64,000 nucleotides of DNA, from NCBI RefSeq assembly GCF_947499215.1, contig NZ_CANMNI010000001.1, positions 806,001 through 870,000 of the forward strand. Direction: 5' to 3'. The notes under the pieces were generated by a model, which did no database searches, was not told the origin of the DNA, and saw only the letters and a list, made by a program, of their open reading frames with translations. The position numbers and the translations under genes are program-made. Of this stretch, positions 2,696 to 57,762 are shown one piece after another (position 1 is the first letter of the stretch; each line of letters starts with the position of its first letter). The stretch is from an uncultured Pontibacter sp. (GTDB lineage: Bacteria; Bacteroidota; Bacteroidia; Cytophagales; Hymenobacteraceae).

Positions 2696-2727
2696 TTTCA
2701 ATCTTCCTAGTTTTTAGCACAAGCTAA

Positions 2728-2790: not shown

Positions 2791-2969
2791 ACTTATTATT
2801 TATATTATATCAATAAATTTTTTATATATAAAAAGTATAATAAATAATAATCATATAACAAATATGTGCCTGTATGAGTAACTCAGTCTACCATACACTC
2901 GTATTGTAATCAAATACGTTTTTATTTAATTATTCTTATTGCCAAATCTCACCCTTGCAATTTTAGACT

Positions 2970-3764: not shown

Positions 3765-3784
3765 ACTCTAATTTATGAAAGCTT

Positions 3785-7539: not shown

Positions 7540-7677
7540 TTATCTCTTGCCCTCAACCTTATCTCAAAACTGTGTGAGTAAAGCCTTTTGTCAATTTTCC
7601 TAGTTCACTGTAGACGATCAGCAGCTTAACTTTAATTCCTTTACATTATTCTTTTAATTCTATAGAACTTCTACACA

Positions 7678-9246: not shown

Positions 9247-9334
9247 CAGTGTAAAGCATATCCAGCTCAAGTTGCTATAAACTTTCAAAGCTATGGTCCT
9301 ACATTAATATTAAGACACAGATAAAAATAAGTTT

Positions 9335-10459: not shown

Positions 10460-10648
10460 ATGCACCAAGTCAGAAATACCAGAAAATTAATTTTACTATG
10501 GCACCTCAGTTTATTTCTAATATGCTGCCTTCTCCCTTAGAATCGCCGGCACAATGGTAATATATAGTGCTATTATATTATAGGTAATAGTTCTATTAAA
10601 CAGAATGATAATTTACCAGTTTGTATATAATTTTCAGTGACACACCCT

Positions 10649-12843: not shown

Positions 12844-12871
12844 GTGTATTTAAGACTTTAAAGCGAATTCT

Positions 12872-14158: not shown

Positions 14159-14237
14159 TAGAAAGATCTAAGCAGTACTAGTACTTTCCATTTCGTTGTG
14201 TCACTTGCATCGGGAATCAATATAAAAACTTTATTAT

Positions 14238-15350: not shown

Positions 15351-15407
15351 CTACACTCAACATATGCAGTTCCATTATATGCTAACAATAATTAAAATGA
15401 TTACAAT

Positions 15408-16565: not shown

Positions 16566-16757
16566 ATGAAGTTGATAGCCTTTTAATTACTCCGGTTAAG
16601 GAATTCCCGGCTATAGCTTTCAATATGTAATATTAAGAAAGTACTCTATGTATACATGGAAAGCTAAAGTGTTTTTCAGCCATTAGAATTAGATAGTGAG
16701 ATACCCATTCGTCGGCAGCAAGTTCCTTATACTATAACATAAACTATTTATCTCATC

Positions 16758-17795: not shown

Positions 17796-17968
17796 AACTT
17801 CCTAAAAAAAGGAACTAGTAGGGTTGATATTCTTTACTTCTACTATTTCTGAGTACCGTCTCTTCCTGCCTACATCTTAAATATTAGCTCCTAATTCGCA
17901 TAAAACTGAATATTAACGGAGCAGCTACATGCCGATAGAAATATATAATCTATTATAAGACAGGTATA

Positions 17969-19396
17969 TCAGAAAGCTGCCTTGTGCACTTTTTTACTAA
18001 ATATAGTCAGGAATATTATCTTCATATCTAACCCGAATGACCAGTTCTCAACATACCAAAGGTCATACTTTGTACGCATTGTTTTTTGCTCTTTAGTTTC
18101 TGTGGGCCCTCTCCAACCATTCACTTGTGCCCACCCGGTGATTCCAGGTTTAAAGTAATGCCTCATCATATACTTCTCTTCACTTTCTTGAAATTGTTGG
18201 TTAAGAACGCTCCTGTGTGGTCTTGGCCCGACTACGCTCATATCACCTAGAAGTACATTAACAAACTGGGGTAATTCATCTAAGCTATACTTTCTTAAAA
18301 TTCTTCCAAGTTTGGTTATTCTCTGATCATTCTTAGCTGTAGACAGTGTGCCCCCTATTTGAGAATCATTCTCCCGCATGCTTCTGAATTTAAAAATCCT
18401 AATTGGACGCCCACTTTTGCCTATCCGCATTGGGCAATAAAATACAGGTCCCGGGGAATCTACTTTAATTAACAGGGCTATAAGTAGAAACAATGGCAAC
18501 AACATTAGTAAAGCAATGAAAGAAAATAACTTATCGAAGCTATTCTTTACAAATGATGCAATGGCATTGTCCAGTGGCAACTGTCGTACATTTATTGCCT
18601 CTAAATGGCCATACCGTGTTGCTTTATACTTGTCACCAAATAATCCCTGATAATCCGGTATATACTTTACACGCACCCCATGATAGTCAGCTGCAGCCAG
18701 TATATTCTTTACCTTCTTGGATGGTTTAATAGGTATTGCTATTACAATCTCATCAACCAAATTATCTCTTAGGTAATCATGTATGTTAGATATATCTCCA
18801 ACTACTTTCTCGTGCTCAACAATGCATTCTTCTTTCTTACACTTAACAAATCCTTTAATTTGATGACTTGAGCTATTTTTCCCATGCAAGCTCTTCTCAA
18901 CATTAACCGCCATGTTTCCAATTCCAGCCACTAGCGTGTATTTTGCGGAAGACTTAGAATTGACAAGTAAGCTTATATTAGATACCATCAAATTAATCGG
19001 GATCCCGATTACTGGAAGAGAAACAACAAACGCAATAACTACGGTTTTACTAGTTTCAGGATAAGGATAGATTAAAAAGAACAGAACCACCAACCCTAAT
19101 AGAATAAAGTATGCCTTGATGTAATAGAATACGCGTAAGTTAGCCTTACTAAGGCTAACGTCATATATATTCCGCCAGTAACCTAGCATAATCCACAGAA
19201 AGACGATTCCAACAAGAATTAGCCACTCAAGCTCTAGATACTTATTCTCACTAAAAAGAAATATCGACAAGAAAAATGAAAGTATAAGAGTTAGTACATC
19301 TGCTCCTAGATATATTGGAGGTAGTGGTTGTCTAGATTTAATCATAGCGTATTTGTTTAATTCATCAGCACATGGCGATAGTACACTAAATTTCAC
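17969..19396 (-). CDS. Undecaprenyl-phosphate glycosylphosphotransferase (initiating enzyme)
   Basis: 475 residues of the WbaP/WcaJ-type polyisoprenyl-phosphate hexose-1-phosphate transferase family, which loads the first sugar-phosphate on undecaprenyl phosphate. Several N-terminal membrane helices (about 28-130) and a CoA-binding-like middle domain precede one more helix (about 290-312) and the catalytic domain. That domain carries FKFRSMRENDSQ, RKYSLDELPQFVNVLLGDMSVVGPRP and PGITGWAQVNGW. It faces the plus-strand genes convergently, closing the main cluster. Translation could also start at Met18. Confidence 0.92.
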   Translation of the reverse strand: MKFSVLSPCADELNKYAMIKSRQPLPPIYLGADVLTLILSFFLSIFLFSENKYLELEWLILVGIVFLWIMLGYWRNIYDVSLSKANLRVFYYIKAYFILLGLVVLFFLIYPYPETSKTVVIAFVVSLPVIGIPINLMVSNISLLVNSKSSAKYTLVAGIGNMAVNVEKSLHGKNSSSHQIKGFVKCKKEECIVEHEKVVGDISNIHDYLRDNLVDEIVIAIPIKPSKKVKNILAAADYHGVRVKYIPDYQGLFGDKYKATRYGHLEAINVRQLPLDNAIASFVKNSFDKLFSFIALLMLLPLFLLIALLIKVDSPGPVFYCPMRIGKSGRPIRIFKFRSMRENDSQIGGTLSTAKNDQRITKLGRILRKYSLDELPQFVNVLLGDMSVVGPRPHRSVLNQQFQESEEKYMMRHYFKPGITGWAQVNGWRGPTETKEQKTMRTKYDLWYVENWSFGLDMKIIFLTIFSKKVHKAAF

Positions 19397-20499
19397 TTTC
19401 TAATTACTTCGGTAGGGATTGAAAGATACTTGCAGCTTCAGGTTGACAGTATTCTTATAAAAGATCCCTTAACATTAAATATTTACACCTTACTAATTCA
19501 AATAGAGTATATTATATTTAATTTAATCAATCCTGAGTTGACCTTTAGACACTTTATAAAGAAGTGAATTATTATGATGATTATACAATTTATAATTCTA
19601 GTATATTTTCTCCCATACCTATCATAAGTTACGTTGTAGTTAGTATTAACGATCTCTATATGTTAAAATAAAATATTTGCCATATTTGGTCTCTTCCAAA
19701 GATTTTTTTAAAAATTACCAATAATGATAAAATGTAACATATAATAAATATACTTAAATCAAGAATTAAAGATTTGAATATTTTATATTTTTTTTAAAGC
19801 AATTTTGAATTTATGGGGAAAGAGACTATTTGTCTAGGGAATGTTCGAAAATGCAAGGTAAATACAATTTTATGGCTGTGAACATATTCCTATTAAGGGT
19901 GAATAAGTATAGCTATAAAGGTATATTCATAGGTTTGATCAATCATTTAGAGAAATGTTTTGGACAGAATACTAAACTAGAATTCTCTTGATCTGCTCAT
20001 ATTTGATAGGTTATCCTATTGAGCGTATAGCAGTTATTTTTTCTCAAGCATAATTTTAAATTCGAGTGCTTCTACTGTGACCTTGTACAGTACATCTCAT
20101 GTTATATAACATAGAACACTACTCTTAAATAACCCCGCTCTGCTGCAGTGGCCATCAAATGGGACACTTCAAGCATCTTATAACTGATCAAAAATAAGTT
20201 TTCCTTAATGGCTTTTTATGTTATCATTAAGAGATCCTATATAGTAATTACTTTCATGAATTGTCACATCCAAAGCGATTTGAAATGTTTATACAGTAAA
20301 GTCATAAAAGAATAGTCATGAAATTTCACATATGCTGTATATATTATAATGCATATCGGTAAAACATCATTAGCATAAATAGTTATTTTTTAAAATTATT
20401 CGTATAATTTTTAGGCGAAACCTAAGAATGGCGTTACAGGTGAACCTTATTTTTCCAATAGAATTTAATTAGATCCTTTGCTTTGAAATTAGAAAAGAC
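19397..20499. other. Intergenic, 1.1 kb, very AT-rich, no gene seen
   Basis: Separates the initiating transferase from the next plus-strand ORFs. I found no ORF above background, no tRNA and no clear hairpin terminator. Promoters for the divergent genes must lie here or in flanking sequence, but no confident -33/-7 pair could be named. Confidence 0.4.
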
Positions 20500-20802
20500 T
20501 TGTTGAAAAGGTCCTTTAAAATAGTTAAGAAACTGACTGGCAATAGAGTTATGGCTCTTATTCCGGCTGTTGATTCCAAATTCGAGTGGGCCACTAAATA
20601 CCAATCATGCCTTGGGTTAACTGCATTCCAGAGGATAAAATTTATATATAAATGGCAAAGGTTGTATCATCAAATGTGTTTGCAGATATTATTAATGCCT
20701 GAAAGTGGCAAACAATTCACAGGCCTTGCAATAACTGGCTTTCCGAAAGCAAAACATACATATAGATCTATAAGGCATTTACATGGGCACAAGCTACCGT
20801 AG
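20500..20802 (+). CDS. Hypothetical or remnant ORF, 100 aa
   Basis: A 100-codon frame opening with TTG (TTG TTG AAA AGG). I do not recognise it. The product is basic (MLKRSFKIVKKLTGN), without membrane segments or signal. The C-terminal ITGFPKAKHTYRSIRHLHGH is not enough for a family call. It lies 50 bases before a FemAB/GNAT-like gene on the same strand and at the edge of a large empty AT-rich region. It could be a decayed gene end rather than a functional protein. Confidence 0.25.
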   Translation: MLKRSFKIVKKLTGNRVMALIPAVDSKFEWATKYQSCLGLTAFQRIKFIYKWQRLYHQMCLQILLMPESGKQFTGLAITGFPKAKHTYRSIRHLHGHKLP

Positions 20803-20854
20803 CTCTCTAATCAATGCTCTTATATTAATTAAACAGGTATAGCTCTTCGATACT

Positions 20855-22495
20855 ATGATTGACATTCAGCACAAGGTACTTAAAAAAGAGGTTGAGATTA
20901 TAGAGTTACTAATAGGCGATGATGCCTTGAGACAAATCCAAGATAATGAGTTTATCTCTGACTGGGACAACATATATGATCTATGTCCTTGGGCTACTGT
21001 TTTTCAAAAAAGGGAATTTGTAACCTCATGGTATAGGATCTACCAAGACAAATATGTTCCTATTATTGTCAGTGCAAAAAATAATGGAAGACTCACCGGC
21101 CTTCTAACGTTAGCAAAAAGTAATGATAAACATATAATCGGCGCAGGAGGGAATCAAGCTGAATATCAGGTCTGGTTAGCTGAAGATTCTTCCAACTCGG
21201 AATTCATAATAAATGCGCTGAGTCTTCTTCAGAAGCAATTTCCTAAAGCTGCGATTCATTTAAAGTATATTCCCTACAATACTCCCATCGGTTGTATAAA
21301 GACCGATCCTTACTGGAAAAGCCGATGCATGGTCCAGTCATTTAAACAACCCCTACTAGTTGTAGATGAAGCTAGCCTTACCCGTGAATTGAAGAAGAAA
21401 AACAGAAGAGAGAAACTAAATCGTTTAAAAAGATTAGGTGAGTTAAAGTTTGAGCGCATTACAGGAACCGATGAGTTTGCCTCAACCATCGAAGAGCTTG
21501 CCGTTCAATTTGATTTCCGAAAAGGTGCGACAGTAAACATTAACCCATTCAAAGATGACCCATTCAAGCGAAAGTTCATGCTTGCTTTGTTTGAGCATAA
21601 TTTAGTACATGCCACAATTCTGAAGCTAAATGATGAAATTATTGCCTCTAATATAGGTGCAATGGATAACAACTGGGTCCATTTGCAAGGTCTTAATACC
21701 CACTCTCCTTTCTATGCAAAGCATTCTCCCGGTATACTTCATTTCCTGATGCTTGGCAAGCTGATGGTCGAGGAGAATTTTAAAGTGTTTGACTTAACAC
21801 CTGGAGGAGACTCCTATAAAGAGGATCTGGCAAACCATTATGAAAATGCATTCGAACTTACCATCAGCAACCCTAGTCATATTCTATCAAAAAATCTTCA
21901 GTATAAGCTGATTAAATATATAAAGCTGACTTTATTAAAAGCTGTAGCAAGAAAAACTTTTATTAAAGATTTTAAAAAAGCTACTTGGAATACATCTGAG
22001 AGAATTCGTAAAAGCCTAAGATCATCAGTTACTGACTATATTACTTTTATATATCCTGCAAAACAGGACAGAGTTTATTCTACTTACTGCCATTCTATCA
22101 TTAAACTTCAGAATTCCACTATTCCCATCAATAAAATGAGCCTCGAAGACCTGCTGGACTACGACGGCCGTGAGGCGTGGCAGACGCGGTGGGAGTTTCT
22201 GGAGGAGGCAATGCGGCGCTTCGAGTCGGGTGAGCGCAGCTACACCTGGGCCGAGGGGGGGCGGCTGCTGGCCTGCGCCTGGCTGGGGAGGGCGCCTGTC
22301 GGCGGCCCGGCGCCGGAGGGGGCGCCCGTGCTGCGGGGCATCTACTGCCACCCGGCCGGCCGGGGGCGGCTGGCCGGCTTTCTGGCGGCCGCGGCGGGGG
22401 AGGCCTGCCAAGGCGGGGGAGAGCTGTACGCCACGGCCCGGGAGGCATACACCTCCCAAGCCCTTGAAGCGATTGGATTCACATTAGTCACTTAG
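20855..22495 (+). CDS. FemAB/CelD-like GNAT protein with GC-rich C-terminal cassette (copy A)
   Basis: 546 residues. Residues about 30-340 fit the Acetyltransf_6/FemAB-like (CelD, BioF2) GNAT group, with DWDNIYDLCPWATVFQ near the start and VFDLTPGGDSYKE near the end, the region that normally closes the acyl-CoA or aminoacyl site. From about residue 431 a second GNAT-like domain begins (LLDYDGREAWQTRWEFLEE ... SQALEAIGFTLV). The body is AT-rich like its surroundings, while this last third is strongly GC-rich. It is nearly identical in DNA to the end of the convergent paralogue at 23020-24663. N-acylation of a surface-glycan sugar is a guess from context. Confidence 0.72.
   Translation: MIDIQHKVLKKEVEIIELLIGDDALRQIQDNEFISDWDNIYDLCPWATVFQKREFVTSWYRIYQDKYVPIIVSAKNNGRLTGLLTLAKSNDKHIIGAGGNQAEYQVWLAEDSSNSEFIINALSLLQKQFPKAAIHLKYIPYNTPIGCIKTDPYWKSRCMVQSFKQPLLVVDEASLTRELKKKNRREKLNRLKRLGELKFERITGTDEFASTIEELAVQFDFRKGATVNINPFKDDPFKRKFMLALFEHNLVHATILKLNDEIIASNIGAMDNNWVHLQGLNTHSPFYAKHSPGILHFLMLGKLMVEENFKVFDLTPGGDSYKEDLANHYENAFELTISNPSHILSKNLQYKLIKYIKLTLLKAVARKTFIKDFKKATWNTSERIRKSLRSSVTDYITFIYPAKQDRVYSTYCHSIIKLQNSTIPINKMSLEDLLDYDGREAWQTRWEFLEEAMRRFESGERSYTWAEGGRLLACAWLGRAPVGGPAPEGAPVLRGIYCHPAGRGRLAGFLAAAAGEACQGGGELYATAREAYTSQALEAIGFTLVT
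22148..22488 (+). repeat. GC-rich cassette, copy A of inverted repeat
   Basis: About 341 bases, mostly G+C, running from gacctgctggactacgacgg to gattcacattagt. The same sequence with scattered substitutions and one 6-base indel is present inverted at 23027-23361. Both copies are in frame as the C-terminal domain of a GNAT-like protein. Flanks are AT-rich and unrelated between the copies. Confidence 0.9.
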
Positions 22496-40910: not shown

Positions 40911-42434
40911 ATGAGTACACCGGAAACAAACGGCATTTTTGCAGAGCACTATCTTTTAAAGGAGCGACTTAGCTCGGGAAGGGTTGAGGAGGTATGGAAG
41001 GCAGAGGACTGGTCGGATGAAGGGGCGCCTGTTACGCTCAGACTGTATGCGCCGCAGATCCGCCTCGACCCGCATAGTCTTGACCTCTTGCGAAAAGAGC
41101 AGGAAGAACGCGCCGCATTGGAGCATCCTAACCTGTTGTCCCCATCCGGCTTTGGGGTGCATGCGGGCATCCCATATGAGGTGGTGCCGCTTCAACCACA
41201 GCAATCCCTCGCTCAAAAACTCCTGCTCGATGGCCCTTTACCCGAGCGTGAAATTGCTTTGCTCATCAGGCAGGTAGCGACGGCGCTTTATTTCCTTCAT
41301 ACCCGGCAACCTCTTATATTACACAGACAACTATCGCCTGACCATATCATGGTCAGCAATGATGGCGCTTATTTGCTATCAGCCCCCGCACTCAGCAGCC
41401 AGTTGCGAACCGTACTGCACAGGGCGACCGGCACACCCTTGGCTACGGGCACGGCCTATGCCGCTCCCGAGCTTTTCGGTTCACACCCCTTGCATAGCGA
41501 AGCCAGCGACATTTTTGGGCTTGGTGTCAGCTTATATGAGCTCTGTACCGGAGAGACCCCTTGGTTGGGTAATGGGGGACTAAGCTTAAGCCAAGGCGCC
41601 GAAATCCCGATTGTGCCTGCACCCTACTCCCGCTATCTCAGCAATCTGGTGAGGGCCTGTCTGCACCCTGACCCAAACAAGCGACCCTCGGCGCAGGTGC
41701 TGGCCGATGAGGCAGACTATTATCTAGAACACGGACAATGGAAACCTTACGGGGCCTTTGGTAATGTAACGGCCGAGTCAATCGTCTACAAAAAGGGGCC
41801 ATCTATTGGCTTGATTCTTTTGGCTGTATTGCTAGTACTCGGAGCAGCCGCGGCTACCTATTACTTTTACCTAAGGGAGCCTGCCAAACCAAGCAAACCG
41901 GACACATACGCAAGTACTACCTCCTCCAGCGCTACTTCTTCCAACTCCGGTCAAATCCCACCCGACGACACAACCACGGCTATAGACCAGACTGCGCAAG
42001 CACCGGCGAAGGCGCAGAAGAAAGCCGTAGTTGCTCAACCTGAGCAAAAAGCCGTAACTACAGCTCAGCCTGAAAAGAAACCTCCAGTCCAAAAGCCAGT
42101 TACAAAGCCTGCGCAGCGAAAGCCCGCTCAACCTTTACAGCCGACTTACCCTAGGCCCACCAGTCTCGACGGGTACCTGAATGGCCTTCTAAATGAAGAG
42201 ATACCGCTGGAAGTACGAGACCGATGGCGCCCAGCCATTCAGAAATATTTCTCGAACGACGCCATCATCTCGGCTAAAATGAACAATGCGCCGCTGGGCA
42301 GTTTTGGAGTCAACGAGTTCATCGATATCCTGCTGAGTTCCGAAAACGGCAACAGCATCATCTTAGAGGAAATTATTAGAGAAGAAGACGGCACCATTGA
42401 TGAGGTTAGCGTTAGCATTATTACCGTCGAATAA
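40911..42434 (+). CDS. Membrane-anchored protein kinase-like protein, probable pseudokinase
   Basis: 507 residues with a Ser/Thr-kinase-like domain at about 12-275 followed by one membrane helix (about 296-318; LILLAVLLVLGAAAATYYFYL). A Pro/Ala/Lys/Gln-rich periplasmic stretch and a conserved-looking C-terminal about 85-residue domain complete it. Catalytic motifs are altered: the beta-3 lysine position reads VTLRLYAP, HRD reads HRQLSPDH, and DFG is missing (LLSAPAL). AAPELFG and DIFGLGVSLYELCTGETPW keep the APE and helix-F features. It is therefore more likely a signalling scaffold than an active kinase. It is followed codirectionally by a DUF5687/ABC pair. Confidence 0.8.
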   Translation: MSTPETNGIFAEHYLLKERLSSGRVEEVWKAEDWSDEGAPVTLRLYAPQIRLDPHSLDLLRKEQEERAALEHPNLLSPSGFGVHAGIPYEVVPLQPQQSLAQKLLLDGPLPEREIALLIRQVATALYFLHTRQPLILHRQLSPDHIMVSNDGAYLLSAPALSSQLRTVLHRATGTPLATGTAYAAPELFGSHPLHSEASDIFGLGVSLYELCTGETPWLGNGGLSLSQGAEIPIVPAPYSRYLSNLVRACLHPDPNKRPSAQVLADEADYYLEHGQWKPYGAFGNVTAESIVYKKGPSIGLILLAVLLVLGAAAATYYFYLREPAKPSKPDTYASTTSSSATSSNSGQIPPDDTTTAIDQTAQAPAKAQKKAVVAQPEQKAVTTAQPEKKPPVQKPVTKPAQRKPAQPLQPTYPRPTSLDGYLNGLLNEEIPLEVRDRWRPAIQKYFSNDAIISAKMNNAPLGSFGVNEFIDILLSSENGNSIILEEIIREEDGTIDEVSVSIITVE

Positions 42435-42526
42435 GCTTAATTTAATTTAAATAAGAAATTACAATGGGGGCTTGGTAATATAAATATTATCAACAATATT
42501 TATAAAGCCATATATTTTTGTACCCT

Positions 42527-44002
42527 ATGTTTCTAGTTCTACTCCGACAACAGTGGAAGCAGACCAGTCGGTCCCCTGTTTTTCAAAAAAGCTTAGTCGT
42601 CAATATCATCCTCGGGTTGCTGATTATTTATTTTGCTTCAATCCTTGTCACGCTTGGCTTTTTTGCGGATAAAGTATTAGTGAAACTCTACCCCGGTCAG
42701 AGCTCCGTTGATTCCCTCAATAGTTTTCTGCTCTTCTATTTTCTGATTGACCTCCTTCTGCGGTTTATGATGCAGGACTTGCCCGTGCTGGCCGTGCAGC
42801 CATACCTGCACCTGCCTGTGCGGCGCAACAGACTGATACACTTCATGCTGCTTCGCTCTATACCCAGCATGTTCAACCTTATGATGCTGCTGGTATTTGT
42901 GCCCTTTATGCTGCGAGCTGTTATACCTACTTATGGCACAGGTATAGCTTTGGTGTGGCTGGCAGCGTTACTCATGCTTACTTTCTTCAACAACTACCTG
43001 CTCATCTATTTCAAGCGGCAGCTAACCAACAATCCTAGAGCCACTTTGCTGCTAGTTGTAGCCGTGGCCGGAATGATGCTGCTTGATTACTTGCAGGTGC
43101 TTTCACTGCGGCAGCTCTCTATGGATGCTTTCGGTGCGCTCATGCAGCAACCATGGCTACTGGTAGTGCCTTTTGGCATGCTTGCATTTGCCTATTGGCT
43201 CAATTTCAATTTCATGCGCGCGCATTTATACCCTGAGGAGATCTTCATCAAGAAAGTTGCGGCAGTGGATGGCAGCGATTTGGGCTTTCTGCACCGATTT
43301 GGCGATACAGGAAAACTGATCGCGCTGGAACTGAAGCTTATATGGCGGCACAAACGTCCGAAATCCATGATCATGCTATCAGGGATTATGCTATTTTACG
43401 GTCTTCTGTTTTATAGAAACGAGGCCTATACCGATGGCTATATGATGCTCATCTTCATCGGTATCTTTATGACAGGTATGCCGATATTCAACTACGGGCA
43501 ATTTGTGCCTGCTTGGCAGAGCGGACATTTCGATGCCCTGCTTACACAACGCATTACATCCTATCAATATCTACAGGCTAAATACTGGCTTTTCGTGCCT
43601 GCCGTGCTGGCCATGTTCCTGCTCACGCTGCCTTATGGCTTATTTGGTTACAAAATCGTGCTCATCAACGTGGCAGCCATGCTTTTTAACATTGGCATCA
43701 GTAGTTTCTTTGTGTTATACTTTGCCGTTTTGAACAAGAAGCGGCTCGACCTAAACAGTGGGTCTGCTTTTAACTGGCAAGGTGTAGGCGCTTCGAGCTT
43801 TATCCTGCAGTTGCCCGTCCTCCTGACTCCACTTCTGATCTATGCGCCTTTCGGTTATTTCGATATGCCACAGGTGGGCGTATTTTTCATCGGTCTAATC
43901 GGCTTGTTGGGATTTGTCTTTCACAGGCAATTGCTGCAACTGGCCACCAGCCGCTTCATCGACCACAAATACCGTATGGCAGCCGGTTACCGACAGCATT
44001 AA
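42527..44002 (+). CDS. DUF5687 family ABC-type membrane protein
   Basis: About 491 residues, with roughly 10-12 hydrophobic segments. The N-terminus FLVLLRQQWKQTSRSPVFQKS and PYLHLPVRRNRLIHFMLLRS match the DUF5687 family of Bacteroidota, which pairs with an ABC ATPase as here. I use ATG 42527; the track opens at TTG 42518. It probably forms the permease part of an exporter. The cargo is unknown. The ATPase follows after 95 bases. Confidence 0.8.
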   Translation: MFLVLLRQQWKQTSRSPVFQKSLVVNIILGLLIIYFASILVTLGFFADKVLVKLYPGQSSVDSLNSFLLFYFLIDLLLRFMMQDLPVLAVQPYLHLPVRRNRLIHFMLLRSIPSMFNLMMLLVFVPFMLRAVIPTYGTGIALVWLAALLMLTFFNNYLLIYFKRQLTNNPRATLLLVVAVAGMMLLDYLQVLSLRQLSMDAFGALMQQPWLLVVPFGMLAFAYWLNFNFMRAHLYPEEIFIKKVAAVDGSDLGFLHRFGDTGKLIALELKLIWRHKRPKSMIMLSGIMLFYGLLFYRNEAYTDGYMMLIFIGIFMTGMPIFNYGQFVPAWQSGHFDALLTQRITSYQYLQAKYWLFVPAVLAMFLLTLPYGLFGYKIVLINVAAMLFNIGISSFFVLYFAVLNKKRLDLNSGSAFNWQGVGASSFILQLPVLLTPLLIYAPFGYFDMPQVGVFFIGLIGLLGFVFHRQLLQLATSRFIDHKYRMAAGYRQH

Positions 44003-44097
44003 CCTAGGTGCTATGCTATAACTGCCCGAAGCCACAAATTCATCTTTTAAAATTAAAAACAGGTGATTACCTGCCAAATCATCATACCTCTATACCC

Positions 44098-44793
44098 ATG
44101 CTTGAAGTAACTAACCTTGAGAAATCTTATAGCGGTATAACCGTGGTGAACATCCCCTCGATGCACATACTGCCTGGCGAAACGGTAGGTTTGGTGGGCA
44201 ATAACGGAGCTGGCAAAACCACGCTATTCCGCATGATGCTAGACCTCGTGCGACCCTCCGCAGGACTAGTCCTAGCCAAAGGAGAGCCAGTTGCCCACGC
44301 CCATAATTGGAAGCACTATACCGGCTCACACCTCGACGAGGGCTTCCTGATCGACTATCTTACACCGGAGGAGTACTTTAAATTTATTGGTGACCTGCAT
44401 GGCTTGTCAACTGGGGACATACAAGAGCGTCTACAGCCCTTTACCGATCTGTTCAACGGTGAGGTGCTACAGCAGCGCAAGTATATCCGTGACTTTTCGA
44501 AAGGCAACCAGAAAAAGATAGGTATAGCGGCAGCAGCGCTTTCCCTACCCGAAATCCTGATCTTGGATGAGCCTTTCGCCAGCTTAGACCCCAGTTCTCA
44601 GATCAGGTTGAAAAATCTGCTGCGTTATCTGCACGAACAGCACCGCATGACACTATTCATCTCAAGCCACGACCTGAGCCATGTGACAGAGGTATGCAAG
44701 CGCATTGTGATTCTCGAGAAAGGACAAATCGTGCAGGATATGCAAACTACGGAAAACACACTGCAGGCTCTCGAAGCCTACTTTACGGTTTAA
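44098..44793 (+). CDS. ABC transporter ATP-binding protein
   Basis: About 231 residues from the ATG at 44098 (MLEVTNLEKSYSG); the track's 30-residue leader is not part of the fold. Walker A is VGNNGAGKTTLF, the signature region DFSKGNQKKIGIA, Walker B EILILDEPFASLDP, and the H-loop SSHDLSHV. The signature reads FSKGNQ, as in many ABC-2-type exporters' ATPases. It energises the DUF5687 membrane partner directly upstream and is followed by a terminator. Confidence 0.9.
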   Translation: MLEVTNLEKSYSGITVVNIPSMHILPGETVGLVGNNGAGKTTLFRMMLDLVRPSAGLVLAKGEPVAHAHNWKHYTGSHLDEGFLIDYLTPEEYFKFIGDLHGLSTGDIQERLQPFTDLFNGEVLQQRKYIRDFSKGNQKKIGIAAAALSLPEILILDEPFASLDPSSQIRLKNLLRYLHEQHRMTLFISSHDLSHVTEVCKRIVILEKGQIVQDMQTTENTLQALEAYFTV

Positions 44794-47212: not shown

Positions 47213-47575
47213 TTGCACGACTTTAGGCTATACATTGAATACGTTGCACGGTTCATCGAAGCGATTGGCGTCCTGATCATTGCGATCGGGGCAGCCGTCG
47301 CACTTTTCCGTTTTTTATTTCCCATTCGGCGAAACTCCCACCGCTCCTATAAGCAGTTGCGCCATGACTTGGGCAAAGCCATCCTGCTGGGGCTAGAGAT
47401 ACTGGTGGCCGCCGACATCATTGCCACCGTCGTGACAGAACCCAGCATGGAGCGCGTGCTCACACTGGGCCTCATTGTCCTGATCCGTACCTTTCTGAGC
47501 CTCTCCCTGCAGGTCGAACTGGAAGGTCGTTTTCCGTGGCAGAAAAGGAGGCCGGAGGCAGAGGAACCTCTTTAG
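47213..47575 (+). CDS. DUF1622 family membrane protein
   Basis: 120 residues, predicted to span the membrane two or three times (FIEAIGVLIIAIGAAVALFRFLF, AILLGLEILVAADIIATVV, LTLGLIVLIRTFLSLSLQVELEGRFPW). This pattern is typical of the DUF1622 family. The only in-frame start near the conserved region is TTG at 47213; no ATG is available before the first helix. It lies between the MBL-fold hydrolase (20 bases) and the channel fusion (105 bases), so cotranscription is likely. The family has no settled function that I know. Confidence 0.78.
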   Translation: MHDFRLYIEYVARFIEAIGVLIIAIGAAVALFRFLFPIRRNSHRSYKQLRHDLGKAILLGLEILVAADIIATVVTEPSMERVLTLGLIVLIRTFLSLSLQVELEGRFPWQKRRPEAEEPL

Positions 47576-47680: not shown

Positions 47681-49798
47681 ATGCGCGCAAGGCCGCTACC
47701 TTTCAAAGAATCCGCACTGCTGCTAGTGGGTGTACTGCTGGTGGTGTATATCATCTACCGGCATTTCTCAAGCAATCCACGCCTGAACGGACATTACACG
47801 GTCGGAGTAATTCTTAACACAATTGAGCTTACACCCAGTGACCTTGAGGTGGTCAAGTTCATCATCGGCAAAAAGCTTCAGCAAATCAATCAACAGGGTG
47901 GCGTGGACGGACGGGAGCTTCGCGTGAAGTATCTAGACGACGAGGGCAGCCCCGAAACGGCGCAGCAAGTGGTGCGCGAAACCATGAATGACAGTCATTT
48001 GATCGGCTATGTGGGCTGCTGGAGTTCTACCCGCTCCAAGGCCATCTCTAATTTAGTCGGGCCCAGCCGAATTCCATTTATAGGAGGTTATGCACTCACT
48101 CCCCTTTTTGAGGACTTCCCTACCATGTACACGGCGGAGCGGGGCATCCTAGACCTTTCGGCAGTATATGGGGAGCTGATTAGTGAATACCGTCGACCGG
48201 CATTTGTTGGCAAGAAAGGAGATCTCTACTCGCTTGCCCTTTTTCAGAAAATGCAGGAAGTGACTTCCCAGCAAGACAATATGCAGTTGGTGCATCATAA
48301 GTGGTTTTCAGGCGATCATACCTACACACCAACTGAACTCGACTCGCTGAGTAGCGCACTTATTTCAAAAGACGCTGACTTTCTGGTGATCTCCTTTGAG
48401 AGCGGCATCACCTCCTATATTATTAAGGAGTTGCGAAACGCAGGTATACACATACCGATCTACACGGCCTTGGGTGACCTTGGCTTTGTGACTTCGCAGG
48501 CTGACGGCCTATCGGTCGGTGAGCTCTACGACCTGAACGTGATCGGCGTTCCTGGGACTTTCAACCTACGGCTGCAGGAGCAGATACCGGCTTTCAGAAA
48601 GGAAGTGCAGCGTAGCGAAACGCTCGAGTTGCAGCTCAGCTTCGGCGCCCGGTTGGCCGATAGTATCGGGCTCTTGGCTGAGGCGGCTCGGTCCTCTGCC
48701 TCCAAAGGCCCGGACCTGCCCATCCGGGAACGCATCAACTACGGCATGACACAGTACATAGGCGGCGAGCGCATTTACAGGGGCTGGTTCAACGACTGGT
48801 ATTTTACGCCTGACAGGGCCATAGCCGGTGACGTGTTGCTTGCTTGGAAGCCCAAAGCCACCGCCTACCACATGCTGGCGCCGCAGCAGTACATGCACCT
48901 AAACGACACCCTGCGCAAAGTGCCTGTGCTCTATACCCACATGGACATGGTGCATATTAACCGGGTCAGCGACACGGAAGGAAGCTTTTACGCCACTTTT
49001 TATTTTGAGGTGACTTCTGCCGGCCAGTTCGCTGTAGAGCAGCTCGACTTTACCAATGCCGCCCGCAGCGAAACGAGCCACGAGTATCTGTTAGACATCA
49101 AGCCCATCCGGCAACGTAGGCTTTCTGGTGAGCATCCGCTCTACAACTACCTGTATAAAATTTCGGGCAAGTTCATCTTTGAGCCGGATCTACGCAACTA
49201 TCCTTTCGATCAGCAGCGTTTCTCCATCTCCTTTCAGCCTAGCAGTGCACTAACGCCGTTTCTGGTGCAGCCTTCCCACCCCTCCTCCCGCGACACGGTG
49301 TTTGAGGTAAGAGGCTGGAACTACAGCGGCCATTATGTTGGTTTCGACCATGACATCATTAGCTCCTTCAATACCTTCGAGTTCTCCCGCCAGACCATTC
49401 CATACTACAAGTTCAACTATACCTTTGTGCTGAGTCGGGCCCGCATCGATTTTTTTCTCAAGGTGTTCACACCGCTTCTAGTTATCCTTACCATCACCTA
49501 TTTCTCGGTATACATCCCGCTGCACCGCTTCGAAACGCTTGAGGCCATACAGGTCACCTCGCTTCTGGCCTCCATCGCCCTGTACTTCTCCGCCTACAAA
49601 CCCGAGATGGAGTTCGCCACCATTTCAGACAAAATCTTTATTTTCACTTACATCATGATCACTTCCCTTATAGGAACCTCCATATTGCAGTTTGTGAAAC
49701 GCAAGAAATATAACACCGAGAGCAAAGTCGCTAAAATTTACCAGCATTACATTTTCCCACTTATCGTACTGGTTTTCACCTTTGCAGTGATCTGGTAA
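47681..49798 (+). CDS. Type I periplasmic-binding domain fused to pentameric ligand-gated ion channel
   Basis: 705 residues. An N-terminal membrane segment (about 9-28) is followed by a Leu/Ile/Val-binding-type periplasmic domain (about 38-395; VKYLDDEGSPETAQQVV, RIPFIGGYALTPLF). A beta-sandwich with pLGIC ligand-binding-domain features spans about 410-580 (FYATFYFEVTS, LRNYPFDQQRFSISF in the Cys-loop position without the cysteines, as in other prokaryotes). Four membrane helices follow: M1 FFLKVFTPLLVILTITYFSV with the conserved Pro, M2 after RFETLEAIQ, M3 ISDKIFIFTYIMITSL, and M4 YIFPLIVLVFTFAVIW ending the protein. The M3-M4 loop is short. I predict a small-molecule-gated ion channel of the inner membrane. 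Confidence 0.85.
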   Translation: MRARPLPFKESALLLVGVLLVVYIIYRHFSSNPRLNGHYTVGVILNTIELTPSDLEVVKFIIGKKLQQINQQGGVDGRELRVKYLDDEGSPETAQQVVRETMNDSHLIGYVGCWSSTRSKAISNLVGPSRIPFIGGYALTPLFEDFPTMYTAERGILDLSAVYGELISEYRRPAFVGKKGDLYSLALFQKMQEVTSQQDNMQLVHHKWFSGDHTYTPTELDSLSSALISKDADFLVISFESGITSYIIKELRNAGIHIPIYTALGDLGFVTSQADGLSVGELYDLNVIGVPGTFNLRLQEQIPAFRKEVQRSETLELQLSFGARLADSIGLLAEAARSSASKGPDLPIRERINYGMTQYIGGERIYRGWFNDWYFTPDRAIAGDVLLAWKPKATAYHMLAPQQYMHLNDTLRKVPVLYTHMDMVHINRVSDTEGSFYATFYFEVTSAGQFAVEQLDFTNAARSETSHEYLLDIKPIRQRRLSGEHPLYNYLYKISGKFIFEPDLRNYPFDQQRFSISFQPSSALTPFLVQPSHPSSRDTVFEVRGWNYSGHYVGFDHDIISSFNTFEFSRQTIPYYKFNYTFVLSRARIDFFLKVFTPLLVILTITYFSVYIPLHRFETLEAIQVTSLLASIALYFSAYKPEMEFATISDKIFIFTYIMITSLIGTSILQFVKRKKYNTESKVAKIYQHYIFPLIVLVFTFAVIW

Positions 49799-51766: not shown

Positions 51767-54700
51767 ATGAAGAACACCTTTACACTAATCATGTTTCTAC
51801 TTCTAGGCTGCTTCGCATCGAGCGCCCTTGCGCAGCAGCGGGAAGTTAGCGGCCGGGTAACAGCGGATGACACCGGCACAGGTATGCCGGGCGTCAGTGT
51901 GGCCGTAAAAGGCACAACCACCGGTGTGGCCACCGACACCGATGGCAACTACCAAATACGGGTGCCTGACGATAACGCGACTCTTGTATTCCGCTTTTTG
52001 GGCTACCAAACCCGTGAAGTGGTGGTGGGCACCCAGAGCACCATAGACGTGGTAATGGCAACAGATGCCAAACAGTTGGGTGAAGTAATGGTGACGGCAC
52101 TCGGTATCACAAGAGAGAAGAAGGCCCTTGGCTATGCCGCACAGTCCGTGGAGTCGGCAGAGCTAACACAGCACCGCCAGCCCAACGTTCTGAATGCCAT
52201 GCAGGGCAAAGTGGCCGGCGCTACCATCTCGAGCACAGGCGGCGCTCCCGGACAGGGCACCAACATCCAGATCAGAGGTATAAACTCCATCGACGTGACC
52301 CGCAACAACCAGCCGCTTTTCGTGATTGACGGCGTCCTAATGGACAATAGTACTTCAACTGTGGGAGCTGGAGCCGAACTCAGGGGTATGAGCAACCGCC
52401 TCGCTGACATTAACCCGGATGACATAGAAAGCATTAACGTGCTGAAGGGTGGCGCTGCAACAGCGCTGTATGGTCTGCGAGGTGCTAACGGTGTTGTGGT
52501 CATTACCACCAAACGGGGCGAGCAAGGAGCCCTGCGCGTGAATTTTACAAGTACGGCGGGTTTAGAGGAGGTAAATAAATTCCCGGATATTCAGGATACC
52601 TATACCCAAGGCTACCGAGGCGTGTATGACCCGACCAGCTTCTGGCCATCGTGGGGTCCGACGGTATCAGAAGCCCGACAGCTGGATCCGACCCATCCCG
52701 ACGGGCTTTACAACCACTTCAGAGACGCCTACGAAACAGGGCATCAATTCCGCAACTCTCTTTCCTTTTCAGGCGGCAACGAGGCCATCACATTCCTATC
52801 CTCTATCTCCCACCTCAGGCATGAGGGGGTGCTGCCATTCACTGACTTCAGCAATACCTCAGCCCGTCTTAACGCAGAGGTTAAAATCAGCGAAAAAGTA
52901 AGAACCGGTGCCAACTTTAACTACACAAATTCCGGCGGAGCCCGCTACAATGCAGACCGCTTTAATGAGAGTCTGAGCTACTGGTCTCCACGCTGGGATG
53001 TGACGGATTTCCGGAAGCCGGACGGCACCATGAACACCTACGGCAACAACAACCCGATATACGGAGCCGCCACTAACCGGCTGGAAGATGATGTAAACAG
53101 ATTCATAGGCGGCTTAAGCTTTGGCTATACCCCAACCAGCTGGCTCGACCTCAGCTACCGCGTAGGCCTTGACACGTACAACGATGACCGCACTCGCACC
53201 GCCCCTGGTCCATTGGGTGTGGCAGATGAGCGGGTATATGAAGATAACGGACAGGGATTCGTAGGTGAGTATACCGAGAAGTTCCGGGCCATTAACTCTA
53301 CCTTCCTGGCTACCCTAAACAAAAGTTTTGGTGAGGACTTTAACGCTACGCTGCGCTTAGGACACGAACTGTACGATAGACGTATAAAAAGCTTTGGCGT
53401 GTTCGGCAATGAGCTTACCGTACATGACTGGTTCTTCCTGCCAAACGCGCGTCTGCTTACCTCCACACAAAACTTAAGAGAGTACCGCTTGATGGGCTTT
53501 TTTGGGGAGGCTACCTTCGATTACAGAGACTTCCTTTTCCTGACCCTGACCGGCCGTAATGACGTAACGTCAACGCTCCGAAAGCCGAACAACTCATTCT
53601 TCTACCCTTCGGCCAGTTTGAGCTATGTGTTCTCCGAGCATCTGGAGCTACCGGAATTCATCAACCAGAGTAAGCTCAGAGTATCGTATGCCCAGATAGG
53701 CAAGGATGCCGAAGAGTATGCCACCTCCTCCGGCTTCGCCTCCTACAATGGACTGCCGACAGGCTATACCGGTTTCACGCGCGCTGCGCTGCTGGGCAAC
53801 GTTGATCTGCGTCCGGAATTCACTGATACCTATGAGGCTGGTTTAGAGATGTCTTTCCTGAACAACCGATTGGGCTTTGACTTTACCTACTACTACTCGC
53901 TGAGCAAGGACCAGATCATCAATATCGCCGTGGCCTCTACCACGGGTTTTGTGCGGGCTGCAGTCAACTCCGGCGAGATGCGAAACAAAGGCGTTGAGAT
54001 TGTCCTGAACGCGGTACCTGTTCAGACGCAGGATTTCACTTGGGACTCCAAGCTGATTTTCTCTGCTAACCGTAACAAGATCCTGAGTATACGGGAAGGG
54101 CTGGACGAGATTCCGTACGCCTCTCAGTTTGGTTACGTAGGCTCTACTGTTACCATGAAATTGATACCTGGCCAGCCATACGGTAATATTTACGGCTCGC
54201 ACTGGCAGCGCTATTACGGCGGGGCTGAAGAGGATCCGCTGTTTATCGATAAAGACCGGCCAATTGTCATCGGAGAAAATGGTTTCCCGGTACGCGCTCC
54301 ACTCACCAGCCAGAAAGTATTGGGCAACTCAATGCCTGACTGGATTGGCGGTTTCACCAACACCCTCTCCTACAAAGGGCTGAGCCTGACTAGCTTGTTT
54401 GATGCCCAGTGGGGTCATGAGAAATACAACCAGATGGGTAACTTCTTCTCCGCCTTCGGTATAGCAGAATACACGGAAGACCGAAACGATACCAGAGTCT
54501 TTGAAGGTGTGCTGGCAGACGGAACACCTAACACCAAGCAAGTATGGCTCGGACAAGGCGTGGGACCTGACGGCGAAGATTACGGAGACGGTTTCTACCG
54601 CCGCTTCCACCGCGGTGTTTCTGAGAACTTTGTGGAGGATGCCTCTTGGGTGCGATTGCGCTCCCTGACCCTGAGCTATTCCCTGCCAAGCAGTTTGTTT

Positions 54701-54886
54701 GAGAATAACTTTATCCGCAACAGCTCGGTGGCACTCACTGGCAACAACCTGTGGCTCTGGACCAGATATTCTGGTTTTGACCCCGAGAACAGCTCCACTC
54801 CAAGCGGTAGCAACGTGACCGGTTTTGCCGGTTTCACTTACCCGGCTGTGAGAAGCTACCTGATTACGCTGAATGTAGGATTCTAA
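51767..54886 (+). CDS. SusC/RagA-type TonB-dependent outer-membrane transporter
   Basis: 1039 residues. The signal peptide ends FASSALAQQ. A CarboxypepD_reg-like domain follows (about 25-105; VSGRVTADDTGTGMPGVSVAVKGT). A TonB plug (about 115-245; NVLNAMQGKVAGATISSTGG, FVIDGVLMDN, VLKGGAATALYGLRGANGVVVITTK) carries the SusC signature, and a 22-strand barrel ends in ...SYLITLNVGF, with the terminal Phe. It imports a nutrient across the outer membrane with its lipoprotein lid, encoded eight bases downstream. No extra N-terminal anti-sigma-interacting domain is present. The substrate is unknown, since no enzymes of a utilisation locus are adjacent. Confidence 0.94.
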   Translation: MKNTFTLIMFLLLGCFASSALAQQREVSGRVTADDTGTGMPGVSVAVKGTTTGVATDTDGNYQIRVPDDNATLVFRFLGYQTREVVVGTQSTIDVVMATDAKQLGEVMVTALGITREKKALGYAAQSVESAELTQHRQPNVLNAMQGKVAGATISSTGGAPGQGTNIQIRGINSIDVTRNNQPLFVIDGVLMDNSTSTVGAGAELRGMSNRLADINPDDIESINVLKGGAATALYGLRGANGVVVITTKRGEQGALRVNFTSTAGLEEVNKFPDIQDTYTQGYRGVYDPTSFWPSWGPTVSEARQLDPTHPDGLYNHFRDAYETGHQFRNSLSFSGGNEAITFLSSISHLRHEGVLPFTDFSNTSARLNAEVKISEKVRTGANFNYTNSGGARYNADRFNESLSYWSPRWDVTDFRKPDGTMNTYGNNNPIYGAATNRLEDDVNRFIGGLSFGYTPTSWLDLSYRVGLDTYNDDRTRTAPGPLGVADERVYEDNGQGFVGEYTEKFRAINSTFLATLNKSFGEDFNATLRLGHELYDRRIKSFGVFGNELTVHDWFFLPNARLLTSTQNLREYRLMGFFGEATFDYRDFLFLTLTGRNDVTSTLRKPNNSFFYPSASLSYVFSEHLELPEFINQSKLRVSYAQIGKDAEEYATSSGFASYNGLPTGYTGFTRAALLGNVDLRPEFTDTYEAGLEMSFLNNRLGFDFTYYYSLSKDQIINIAVASTTGFVRAAVNSGEMRNKGVEIVLNAVPVQTQDFTWDSKLIFSANRNKILSIREGLDEIPYASQFGYVGSTVTMKLIPGQPYGNIYGSHWQRYYGGAEEDPLFIDKDRPIVIGENGFPVRAPLTSQKVLGNSMPDWIGGFTNTLSYKGLSLTSLFDAQWGHEKYNQMGNFFSAFGIAEYTEDRNDTRVFEGVLADGTPNTKQVWLGQGVGPDGEDYGDGFYRRFHRGVSENFVEDASWVRLRSLTLSYSLPSSLFENNFIRNSSVALTGNNLWLWTRYSGFDPENSSTPSGSNVTGFAGFTYPAVRSYLITLNVGF

Positions 54887-54894
54887 AATCAAGA

Positions 54895-56331
54895 ATGAAC
54901 ATGAGAAAGATATATAGATATGCGCTTGCCTTTATGATGATAGGGGCTTCGCTCAGCCTGCAAAGCTGCGAGGATTACTTCGACCTGCACGAGAACCCTA
55001 ACTTGGTGTCGAACCCTCCGCTCAATGCCATGCTTTCCACCACCACCCAGAAAACCGGACTGAACAGCCAGCGGATTGCCGCCACCACTTCTTTTTACGT
55101 GCAGTATGTAGCCAGCCCGGTAGCCGGCAACGGCACAGATACCTATCAAGTAACTGACCTTACCGGTACTTGGGATGCGATCTATCTGGCGATGGCCGAC
55201 ATCTACGACATGAAGCAGAAAGGTCTGGAAGAAGGCGCATCTGACTATGTGGGCGTGGCTAACATTATGATGGCCTACCACCTCAATCTGATAATTGACC
55301 ACTGGGGCGATGCGCCCTACTCGCAGGCATTCGACAATACAACGCTTACTCCCGGTTTTGACCCCGCTCAGGATCTATATGCTGAAGCCATGCGCCTGCT
55401 CGACGAAGGTATAGCCGAGCTCAACAAAACAGATTCACGAATTCCCCTGCGGGACGAAGACGACCTAATACATGGTGGCGATAAGACCAAGTGGATCCGT
55501 ACGGCTTATGCCTTTAAGGCGCGTATGCTCAATAAAGTAAGCAAGCTTTCCAGCTATGACCCTAACGCCGTGCTGACTGCCGTTGACAACTCTTTACAGT
55601 CCAATGCCGATGATGCCGACATGGATGTGTTCGCCGTACGTAACCCTTGGGCCCAGATAGCACAGAACAACACGCAGCTGGTGTTGGGCGGCTGGCTGTC
55701 GGAACAGTTCGTAGACCACCTCAATGGCACGACCTATGGCGTAGTGGACCCGCGCTTGTCACGCATCACCGACCCGACCGACCCTAAATTCTCATTAGAC
55801 CCTTACATAGGTACGCCAAACGGTGTAGGCAATGTAGGTCCGAGAAACAACACGGATCGTGATGAGGTATACATCTCCCGCAACTCCCCACTCACTGGCG
55901 ACCTCTCTCCTATTATTATCGTCTCTTATGCCGAGATGAAGTTTGTAGAGGCTGAAGCCGCCTTCAGAGCCGGTGACCGTGATCGGGCATACGCAGCTTA
56001 CATAGCAGGTATAACAGCGCATATGAACAAGCTGGGTGTGCCGGAAGGCGAGCGCAACGCCTACCTCAACAACCCAGCCGTGGGTGTTGGTGCCGCCAAC
56101 CTGACGCTCGACCTGATCTTTAAAGAGAAGTATGTAGTCACATACCTCAATGCCGAAGCATGGGTGGATGCCAGACGCTACGACTACCAGTATGCTGACT
56201 TCACGCTGCCAGTTGGGGCCGACATCCCAACCTTCATCCGCAGAGTGGCATACCCTCAGGGTGAGGCCAGCAAGAACCCCAACACACCAGATTCGCCAGT
56301 GCTTTCTGAAAGACTGTGGTGGGACATTTAA
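54895..56331 (+). CDS. SusD/RagB-type nutrient-binding lipoprotein
   Basis: 478 residues. The lipoprotein signal ends in GASLSLQSCEDYFD, and the mature part is a helical TPR-rich SusD-like (SusD-like_2) fold with DIYDMKQKGLEEGASDYVGVANIMMAYHLNLIIDHWGDAPYSQAF and the C-terminal ERLWWDI. It forms the surface lid of the SusC transporter, with a spacing of eight bases that shows one operon. Start at Met1 or Met3. A bidirectional terminator follows. Confidence 0.93.
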   Translation: MNMRKIYRYALAFMMIGASLSLQSCEDYFDLHENPNLVSNPPLNAMLSTTTQKTGLNSQRIAATTSFYVQYVASPVAGNGTDTYQVTDLTGTWDAIYLAMADIYDMKQKGLEEGASDYVGVANIMMAYHLNLIIDHWGDAPYSQAFDNTTLTPGFDPAQDLYAEAMRLLDEGIAELNKTDSRIPLRDEDDLIHGGDKTKWIRTAYAFKARMLNKVSKLSSYDPNAVLTAVDNSLQSNADDADMDVFAVRNPWAQIAQNNTQLVLGGWLSEQFVDHLNGTTYGVVDPRLSRITDPTDPKFSLDPYIGTPNGVGNVGPRNNTDRDEVYISRNSPLTGDLSPIIIVSYAEMKFVEAEAAFRAGDRDRAYAAYIAGITAHMNKLGVPEGERNAYLNNPAVGVGAANLTLDLIFKEKYVVTYLNAEAWVDARRYDYQYADFTLPVGADIPTFIRRVAYPQGEASKNPNTPDSPVLSERLWWDI

Positions 56332-56400
56332 AGTTTAAGAGTTAGAAAGTTTAGAAGTTAGAAAGACATCTAGACTACAATTTCTGATCTCTTGGATTAT

Positions 56401-56442
56401 AACAAAGAAGCCGATCTGCTAGCTTAGATCGGCTTCTTTGTT
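56401..56442. terminator. Bidirectional terminator
   Basis: aacaaagaagccgatc / gatcggcttctttgtt, a perfect 16-bp stem with a 10-base loop and T-rich ends in both directions. It lies between the convergent SusD gene and the beta-lactamase-like gene. Confidence 0.9.
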
Positions 56443-56481
56443 TCTAAGAAATTAAATGAGGCCAGATTTCAATACGCCTCG

Positions 56482-57762
56482 CTAATATTGAATTTTAAAC
56501 TTCTGCAGATTGGGCAAGTGTTCTTTTTTTCGTTTGAGTTCGTGCTCATAGAAAGCACGGCCTAGGTTTTTCATAAAAGGATAGCCTACCGTGTCGTACT
56601 TATATTTGCCATCGTTGAAGATCTCATTCTCGTTCACCAAGATCACCGCCGTCAATAGGAACTCGACATTATTATCAAAATCGACGATGTAGGCGTTGTC
56701 GATCAGGAAACCATAAGCATTGCCGATTTTATTGAAGATGCGGATGTTATCAGGTATAGTTTCTTTTGAGGTGCCATACATCAGGAACTTCACATAGCTG
56801 TCCGGGTACTCCTTTGAGTCGTAGGACGGGTAGTCGCTCTCACGGGGCAGCATGCTCATGTATTTGTAGAGGAAGTTATAATCGTCCTCGGTCAGGTTAA
56901 AGCGCTGCTCAGCTGGTACTGACTCCGGGAATAACACGCTTTTGAGTATACCCTGCAGCGCCTCAATCGAAATGTAGTTTTTGGCTGTGAAGTCCATTGG
57001 ACCATCCATCAGCAAATCGTCTTTGATATAGCCCTTTCCAAGCATACCATCGAACTGGGCCTGATTGAACGGAATCGGGTTGTTCACCAGTGGCTGCTCG
57101 TAAATCACTTGGCCATTTTTGTAAAACCGGAAGGGATTGGTATGTCGGTTTTCATCCGGACTCAGAAAGATATCGAGACGGTGCACCAGTTGTACATCTT
57201 TAAACCCTTTTTGGTGCAGACTTTGGTTCAAACGCTGCTGTCCCACAAATTCATAGAGCCGGTTGTAGGCATCGTTGTCGCTCACCAAGAACAGCTTTTT
57301 GATATAGTGCGCAATGGAAGCCTGCCCATCGGCCGAAGTGCTGTCGCCACGCACAGGGCTCTGACCGGCGTAGGCGCTGTCTGCCTGCAGCGGCGTGTAC
57401 TTGTCGAGTCGGTTTATACCTAGCTCATTGAGTTTCTCAAGCGCCACTACGGCACCGGGCAGCTTCACGGTACTGGCCGGATAAAAGTACTCCTGTGGAT
57501 TAACGCGGTAGGTATAGGAGGTAAAGTGCGGCTGGTTCTGCTCGTCGCGGTCTATCTGGGTATACAGAATCTGGAGTCTATACCTGCCTAGATTGTCGAG
57601 TATGGTTTTAAACTGTTCGGGTTTGTTTTCAAGTATCTTCTCTATCATACTGGTTTGCTTACTTACCTGCCTATTGCCTGCGCAAGACGCCATAGTGATA
57701 CAACAAATAAAACCAAGGTATAGCGACCGTTTCCGTATCATTCGAAATGAAATTCTTTTCAT
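56482..57762 (-). CDS. Class-A-beta-lactamase-like serine hydrolase lipoprotein
   Basis: 426 residues. A lipoprotein signal ends MASCAGN (Cys27). The serine beta-lactamase/transpeptidase fold is supported by PASTVK (SxxK, Ser97-Lys100), VSDNDAY (SDN) and a late IFNKIGNAYGFLIDNAYIVDF, where the usual KTG triad appears as NKIG. The domain matches PF13354-type enzymes. It is longer than typical class A lactamases because of an N-terminal about 60-residue region. It may act on peptidoglycan peptides or another ester/amide rather than as a resistance enzyme; activity is unproven. Confidence 0.82.
   Translation of the reverse strand: MKRISFRMIRKRSLYLGFICCITMASCAGNRQVSKQTSMIEKILENKPEQFKTILDNLGRYRLQILYTQIDRDEQNQPHFTSYTYRVNPQEYFYPASTVKLPGAVVALEKLNELGINRLDKYTPLQADSAYAGQSPVRGDSTSADGQASIAHYIKKLFLVSDNDAYNRLYEFVGQQRLNQSLHQKGFKDVQLVHRLDIFLSPDENRHTNPFRFYKNGQVIYEQPLVNNPIPFNQAQFDGMLGKGYIKDDLLMDGPMDFTAKNYISIEALQGILKSVLFPESVPAEQRFNLTEDDYNFLYKYMSMLPRESDYPSYDSKEYPDSYVKFLMYGTSKETIPDNIRIFNKIGNAYGFLIDNAYIVDFDNNVEFLLTAVILVNENEIFNDGKYKYDTVGYPFMKNLGRAFYEHELKRKKEHLPNLQKFKIQY

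Follow-up and report, generated by a model that had tools for sequence, protein, structure and literature searches.

The gene at positions 47681-49798 of the window, the 64-kb stretch of DNA from an uncultured Pontibacter sp. that was analyzed as a whole, encodes a single chain in which a type I periplasmic-binding-protein (PBP-I) domain precedes a subunit of a pentameric ligand-gated ion channel (pLGIC). This architecture, the homology of both halves, their conservation and purifying selection, and the conserved gating and pore residues are all observed. We lean toward the view that five copies of the protein assemble into a homopentamer in the inner membrane, a cation-selective, ligand-gated channel whose PBP-I domains act as sensors ahead of the channel's own beta-sandwich.

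The gene starts with ATG and continues for 705 codons on the plus strand with no internal stops, bearing out the single uninterrupted frame claimed in an earlier sequence-only reading. The motifs quoted in that reading (LDDEGSPETA, IPFIGGYALTPLF, and YPFDQQRF) all lie in the frame, and the order of domains (PBP-I, then pLGIC) and the YPFD Pro-loop had been called correctly. The parts of the gene and its upstream neighbor are given below, with domain boundaries drawn from alignment and the predicted model; M1-M4 together comprise residues 589-705.

47213..47575, plus strand: gene for a small membrane protein of the DUF1622 family (PF07784, E = 5.8e-25), 105 bp upstream of the fusion
47681..49798, plus strand: whole fusion gene, with N-terminal helix, PBP-I domain, and pLGIC subunit (open reading frame, Pfam, PDB phmmer, fold match)
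47702..47770, plus strand: N-terminal hydrophobic helix, residues 8-30 (hydropathy; helix in the model)
47792..48853, plus strand: PBP-I (Venus-flytrap) domain, residues ~38-391 (PF13458, PDB profile, fold)
48026..48028, plus strand: codon of Ser116, aligned with the ligand-carboxylate Ser79 of E. coli LIVBP and invariant in 13/13 members (alignment)
48854..48892, plus strand: short linker between PBP domain and channel, residues ~392-404 (model and alignment)
48893..49444, plus strand: extracellular beta-sandwich (ECD) of the pLGIC, residues ~405-588 (model, fold, profile alignment)
49199..49210, plus strand: Pro-loop YPFD in the Cys-loop position, residues 507-510, without cysteines (GLIC alignment; invariant)
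49445..49513, plus strand: M1 helix, residues ~589-611 (model and profile alignment)
49526..49600, plus strand: M2 pore helix, residues ~616-640, with E618 equivalent to GLIC E222 (-2'), T626 at 6', and L629 at 9' (profile alignment)
49613..49705, plus strand: M3 helix, residues ~645-675 (model)
49724..49789, plus strand: M4 helix, residues ~682-703 (model)

Because residues 8-30 contain no lipobox or evident cleavage motif, this helix is likely a signal anchor that stays uncleaved and holds the PBP domain at the inner membrane. A scan for promoter and terminator consensus sequences returned matches at or below chance, using a consensus not made for Bacteroidota promoters.

Other parts of the window contain several recognizable gene groups. 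The stretch at ~2000-22000 has a G+C content of 0.34-0.40, compared to ~0.5 elsewhere, and carries a cluster of the polysaccharide export/O-antigen type (Poly_export, Wzz/AAA_31, epimerase, glycosyl transferase, Wzy_C-like, Bac_transf). At 40911-44793, a gene for a Ser/Thr protein kinase precedes those for a DUF5687 membrane protein and the ABC ATPase of the latter, an arrangement that is syntenic in Pontibacter relatives. At 51767-57762, a SusC/SusD-like pair precedes a gene on the opposite strand that resembles class A beta-lactamases (Beta-lactamase2).

Sequence and fold agree on the identity of the N-terminal half. The Pfam check proposed in the sequence-only reading was successful: hmmscan placed PF13458 (Peripla_BP_6) on residues 67-267 (E = 3.8e-15), and the same model was found in 13/13 members of the fusion family. 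A profile search of this half against the PDB gave an E value of 7e-9, and Foldseek matched the PBP half of the predicted model to the PBP-I protein 3hut (1.3e-13). The half therefore shows both the sequence and the two-lobed fold of the PBP-I superfamily.

The corresponding check for the channel half literally failed, as hmmscan found neither PF02931 nor PF02932 in the fusion protein or in any of the 13 family members. A PF02931 scan of its own genome likewise gave nothing, and neither did the controls. This miss is due to insensitivity of those models, since structure profiles and folds do match pLGICs. Plain phmmer against the PDB matched residues ~488-705 to pLGIC chains (8e-4), and the family profile recovered GLIC as well as GLIC and GABA-A chimeras, at 3e-7 to 1e-5 and with M1-M4 and the Pro-loop in register; the NCBIfam model LIC (TIGR00860) matched two of the 13 members (0.0017). 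The AlphaFold2 model is of middling quality (pLDDT 68.8, pTM 0.53) and least sure in the transmembrane part; its channel half was matched by Foldseek to DeCLIC (7.5e-13), to GLIC (target-normalized TM 0.65), and also to GABA-A. Profile and fold thus both recognize a beta-sandwich followed by a four-helix channel, and the claim of a C-terminal pLGIC holds despite the Pfam result. No solved chain matched both halves in the PDB phmmer, PDB profile, or Foldseek searches. Matches to the channel fold also occurred in BFVD among giant-virus-like proteins, A0A5J6VL22 and A0A7S9SUV3, whose sources are a Megaviridae environmental sample and Virus NIOZ-UU159 (822 aa); one of them is annotated as a neurotransmitter-gated channel domain protein.

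Residues associated with gating and conduction are strictly retained, with P508, D510, R586, E618, T626, and L629 each invariant in 13/13 members. P508 of the YPFD motif is the absolutely conserved Pro-loop proline that serves as a criterion for pLGICs (PMC4795631). The acidic Pro-loop residue D510 and the basic pre-M1 residue R586 align with GLIC and correspond to the D122-R192 pair that couples its domains; in GLIC, the triad D122-R192-D32 transmits gating. At the inner mouth of M2, the acidic ring at -2'/-1' is provided by E618, the equivalent of GLIC E222, which forms the cation selectivity filter (PMC5760087). Judged by these residues, the fusion protein is most likely a cation-selective channel. 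Its M2-M3 loop is two residues shorter than in stand-alone Bacteroidota channels.

For the ligand pocket, we used a MAFFT alignment that includes LivJ and LivK from E. coli as well as stand-alone PBPs from Bacteroidota. The ligand contacts of LIVBP are S79, T102, Y202, and E226 (PMC13103812). Only one of these four is kept, with S79 corresponding to the invariant S116, and the other positions are occupied by L139, E240, and G265, respectively; an invariant D266 adjoins G265, and the alignment may be off by one at this point. Within the PBP half, conservation is particularly high in the pocket loops GCWSST, D181-S184, S238, and D266, and the GCWSST loop resembles the GCW[ST]S loop of UrtA-like stand-alone proteins. 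A LivK-type model fits 13/13 members and a UrtA (urea) model 12/13, both weakly and about equally. The fusion therefore shares with LIVBP/LivJ and UrtA-type proteins the fold, the first-lobe motif (Ser79 = Ser116), and, for the UrtA-like proteins, the GCW[ST]S loop; in contrast, those proteins serve ABC transporters, whereas this domain is fused to a channel and has several ligand contacts replaced. The pocket would suit a small polar solute that is amino-acid- or amide-like, although the replacement of most LIVBP contacts does not fit LIVBP-type specificity and means that it may bind something else or nothing.

The fusion gene is patchy in its distribution and recurrently lost within the family. 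Of 201 genomes of the Hymenobacteraceae, 14 contain matches, 12 of them full-length and two with remnants only. One of the full-length copies, in a Pontibacter relative, is broken by three in-frame stops (L066/L004 8001-10118), and the remnants, also in Pontibacter relatives, are M1-M3 fragments (L064 ~8007-8494; L065 ~8082-8321). Intact frames of 700-718 aa occur in 11 family genomes and share 42-78% identity, tandem and duplicate copies included. Genome G508 has two copies, and genome G396, from another genus of the family, has a tandem pair (L063 7926-12264) that is 42-44% identical to the window protein. Relatives on plasmids were stand-alone PBPs only, with the channel part absent. For an unsaturated pair of loci (L053/L054), dN/dS was 0.088 for the PBP domain, 0.033 for the ECD, and 0.089 for the transmembrane domain (TMD); values of 0.03-0.09 in both halves indicate that both are kept by selection where the gene survives. 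Several relatives have lost the gene or carry it in broken form, so its role is dispensable. Such frequent loss fits the sparse distribution reported for microbial pLGICs (PMC4795631).

Searching the order and class with the family profile yielded 16 additional open frames (L070-L081 and L096-L099), ~700-740 aa long, which make up a second clade (clade II) and sit in other Bacteroidota families. By hhalign, clade II aligns with clade I, that of the window protein, over 577 columns across both halves (E = 7.7e-14), at a profile-alignment identity of about 20%. In Pfam, the PBP half of clade II is recognized below cut-off only. The clade II model is better than that of the window protein (pLDDT 79.3 vs 68.8); its matches include GLIC and, at a target TM of up to 0.69, the Venus-flytrap domains of GABA-B, mGlu, and LivK. 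The two clades are therefore alike in having collinear PBP-I and pLGIC halves with matches to Venus-flytrap domains and GLIC. They differ, beyond their low identity, in two respects: about half of the clade II N-termini are of the lipoprotein type, the remainder being hydrophobic helices, and the Glu that is invariant in the clade II pore aligns with 2', whereas Glu at -2' is not fixed. An N-terminal membrane tether is common to both clades, and on this basis the flytraps would be placed next to the channel and not far above it.

Phylogenetic analysis fully supported both clades, with very long stems between them. The tree of the channel half did not reject a single fusion clade (AU p = 0.40), and the tree of the PBP half grouped both clades at 87/90, a node that was unstarred and at which long branches meet. 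On the question of one versus two fusion events within the Bacteroidota, the trees of the halves are compatible with either.

The DUF1622 gene is present as a single copy in the window genome. Eight of the 12 genomes that carry a full-length copy have it next to the fusion, and these cases fall on two different chromosomal sites, between which the rest of the neighborhood varies. Its occurrence at these sites, with or without the fusion, is seen in the window and at loci L053-L060 and L107-L114. In the window genome, the genes flanking the second site are present at C1:645-660 kb, with neither fusion nor DUF1622 between them. Given the pair at two sites and these empty flanks, DUF1622 and the fusion probably moved together as a pair; duplication and loss is a possible alternative. 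In six other genomes that were examined, DUF1622 is kept at these sites although the fusion is missing, and in four fusion genomes it is absent or located elsewhere. As each occurs without the other, we rejected DUF1622 as an obligate partner. No DUF1622 gene was found within the ~1.5 kb flanks of clade II or stand-alone channels, and the open-access literature searched yielded a passing mention of this family in one paper.

These data can be combined in a model of ligand gating, in which the pentameric assembly, the class of ligand, the direction of the effect, and the physiological output are what we infer. The N-terminal helix would anchor the protein so that the flytrap is held in the periplasm near the membrane, beside the ECD of the channel. 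An amino-acid- or amide-like solute would bind between the lobes, and the closing lobes would pull on the ~13-residue linker and the beta-sandwich. The signal would reach M2 through the conserved contact between Asp510 of the Pro-loop and Arg586 before M1, upon which the gate at Leu629 (9') would open or shift its opening probability. Cations would then cross the ring formed by Glu618 (-2') and produce a membrane-potential or ion signal. A broader proposal, which we consider doubtful at present, would place clades I and II in a class of their own: membrane-tethered channels gated by a Venus flytrap that is held N-terminally to the membrane and C-terminally to the channel and whose closure directly opens the pore. 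DUF1622 would then be the partner of clade I.

An alternative to direct gating is that the PBP domain serves in allosteric modulation or in assembly, while the agonist, protons, or divalent ions act on the beta-sandwich of the channel itself. There are precedents for modulation in the N-terminal domain of DeCLIC and the amino-terminal domain of ionotropic glutamate receptors. In DeCLIC, the N-terminal lobes are mobile, pack next to the ECD, and have no more than a tuning effect on gating (PMC9897478, PMC12664993), and selection on the ECD of the fusion is as strong as on its PBP domain. However, the high conservation of the pocket loops suggests that a ligand site has been retained, and the DeCLIC lobes are jelly rolls that lack the PBP fold. 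We therefore regard a purely modulatory or assembly role as possible but on the unlikely side.

A PBP domain that no longer binds a ligand and instead serves as a dock for a protein, such as the DUF1622 membrane protein or a periplasmic partner, is quite unlikely. Docking would agree with the recurrent position of DUF1622 directly upstream, at two chromosomal sites, and with the lack of conservation of LIVBP residues T102 and E226; yet pocket residues are invariant, and the genomes that have one gene without the other show that neither needs the other. That the frame is an artefact or a decaying gene, with two neighboring genes merged through an accident of sequencing or frame, is hardly credible. 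Broken copies and remnants do exist, but the intact frames in 11 genomes, including tandem and duplicate copies, the purifying selection on both halves, and the identical domain layout of clade II all argue against this explanation. Conservation and dN/dS rule out a frame accident as far as sequence can. Gating by a ligand-binding PBP-I sensor remains the reading that we favor.

The general design of a PBP-I domain joined to a pLGIC has been known since 2004. Tasneem et al. described PBP-I and channel fusions in the alphaproteobacteria Magnetospirillum magnetotacticum and Bradyrhizobium japonicum and proposed that they act in chemoreception (PMC549065), and a 2022 review states that PBP-like N-terminal domains are frequent in prokaryotic channels (PMC9221113); the statement in the sequence-only reading that surveys had noted PBP fusions was hence correct. 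According to a 2016 survey, such fusions are evidenced at the genome level only and no microbial pLGIC role has been studied in vivo (PMC4795631). In the window genome, chemotaxis genes (one MCP-signal and two CheW) lie ~620 kb away, which speaks neither for nor against such a role. New here are the Bacteroidota branch with clade II, the DUF1622 neighborhood, the way in which the gene has been lost among relatives, and the predictions for individual residues. With several intact Pontibacter orthologues and the better-predicted clade II, two questions become testable: what opens PBP-pLGIC channels, and whether gating of a pentameric channel by a Venus flytrap is possible, given that in animals such domains gate glutamate receptors and drive GABA-B and mGlu receptors. 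The parallel with glutamate receptors, suggested in the sequence-only reading and already drawn by Tasneem et al. (PMC549065), is a fair analogy, but the channel is not homologous.

Compared by the description in that paper, the window protein is like the ART-LGIC fusions of Tasneem et al. in placing a PBP-I domain N-terminal to a beta-sandwich ligand-binding domain and four transmembrane helices in one chain, and differs in belonging to another phylum (Bacteroidota rather than alphaproteobacteria). With GLIC of Gloeobacter violaceus and ELIC of Dickeya/Erwinia, which are opened by protons and primary amines, respectively (PMC5760087, PMC3119659), it shares a cysteine-less Pro-loop, M1-M4, a -2' Glu, and a hydrophobic 9' residue; unlike the fusion, both lack an N-terminal PBP domain. 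DeCLIC of Desulfofustis is likewise a prokaryotic pLGIC with an extra N-terminal domain, and its channel fold matches well. In contrast to the PBP-I domain of the Bacteroidota fusion, however, the N-terminal domain of DeCLIC consists of two beta-rich jelly-roll lobes and is calcium-responsive (PMC12664993, PMC9897478).
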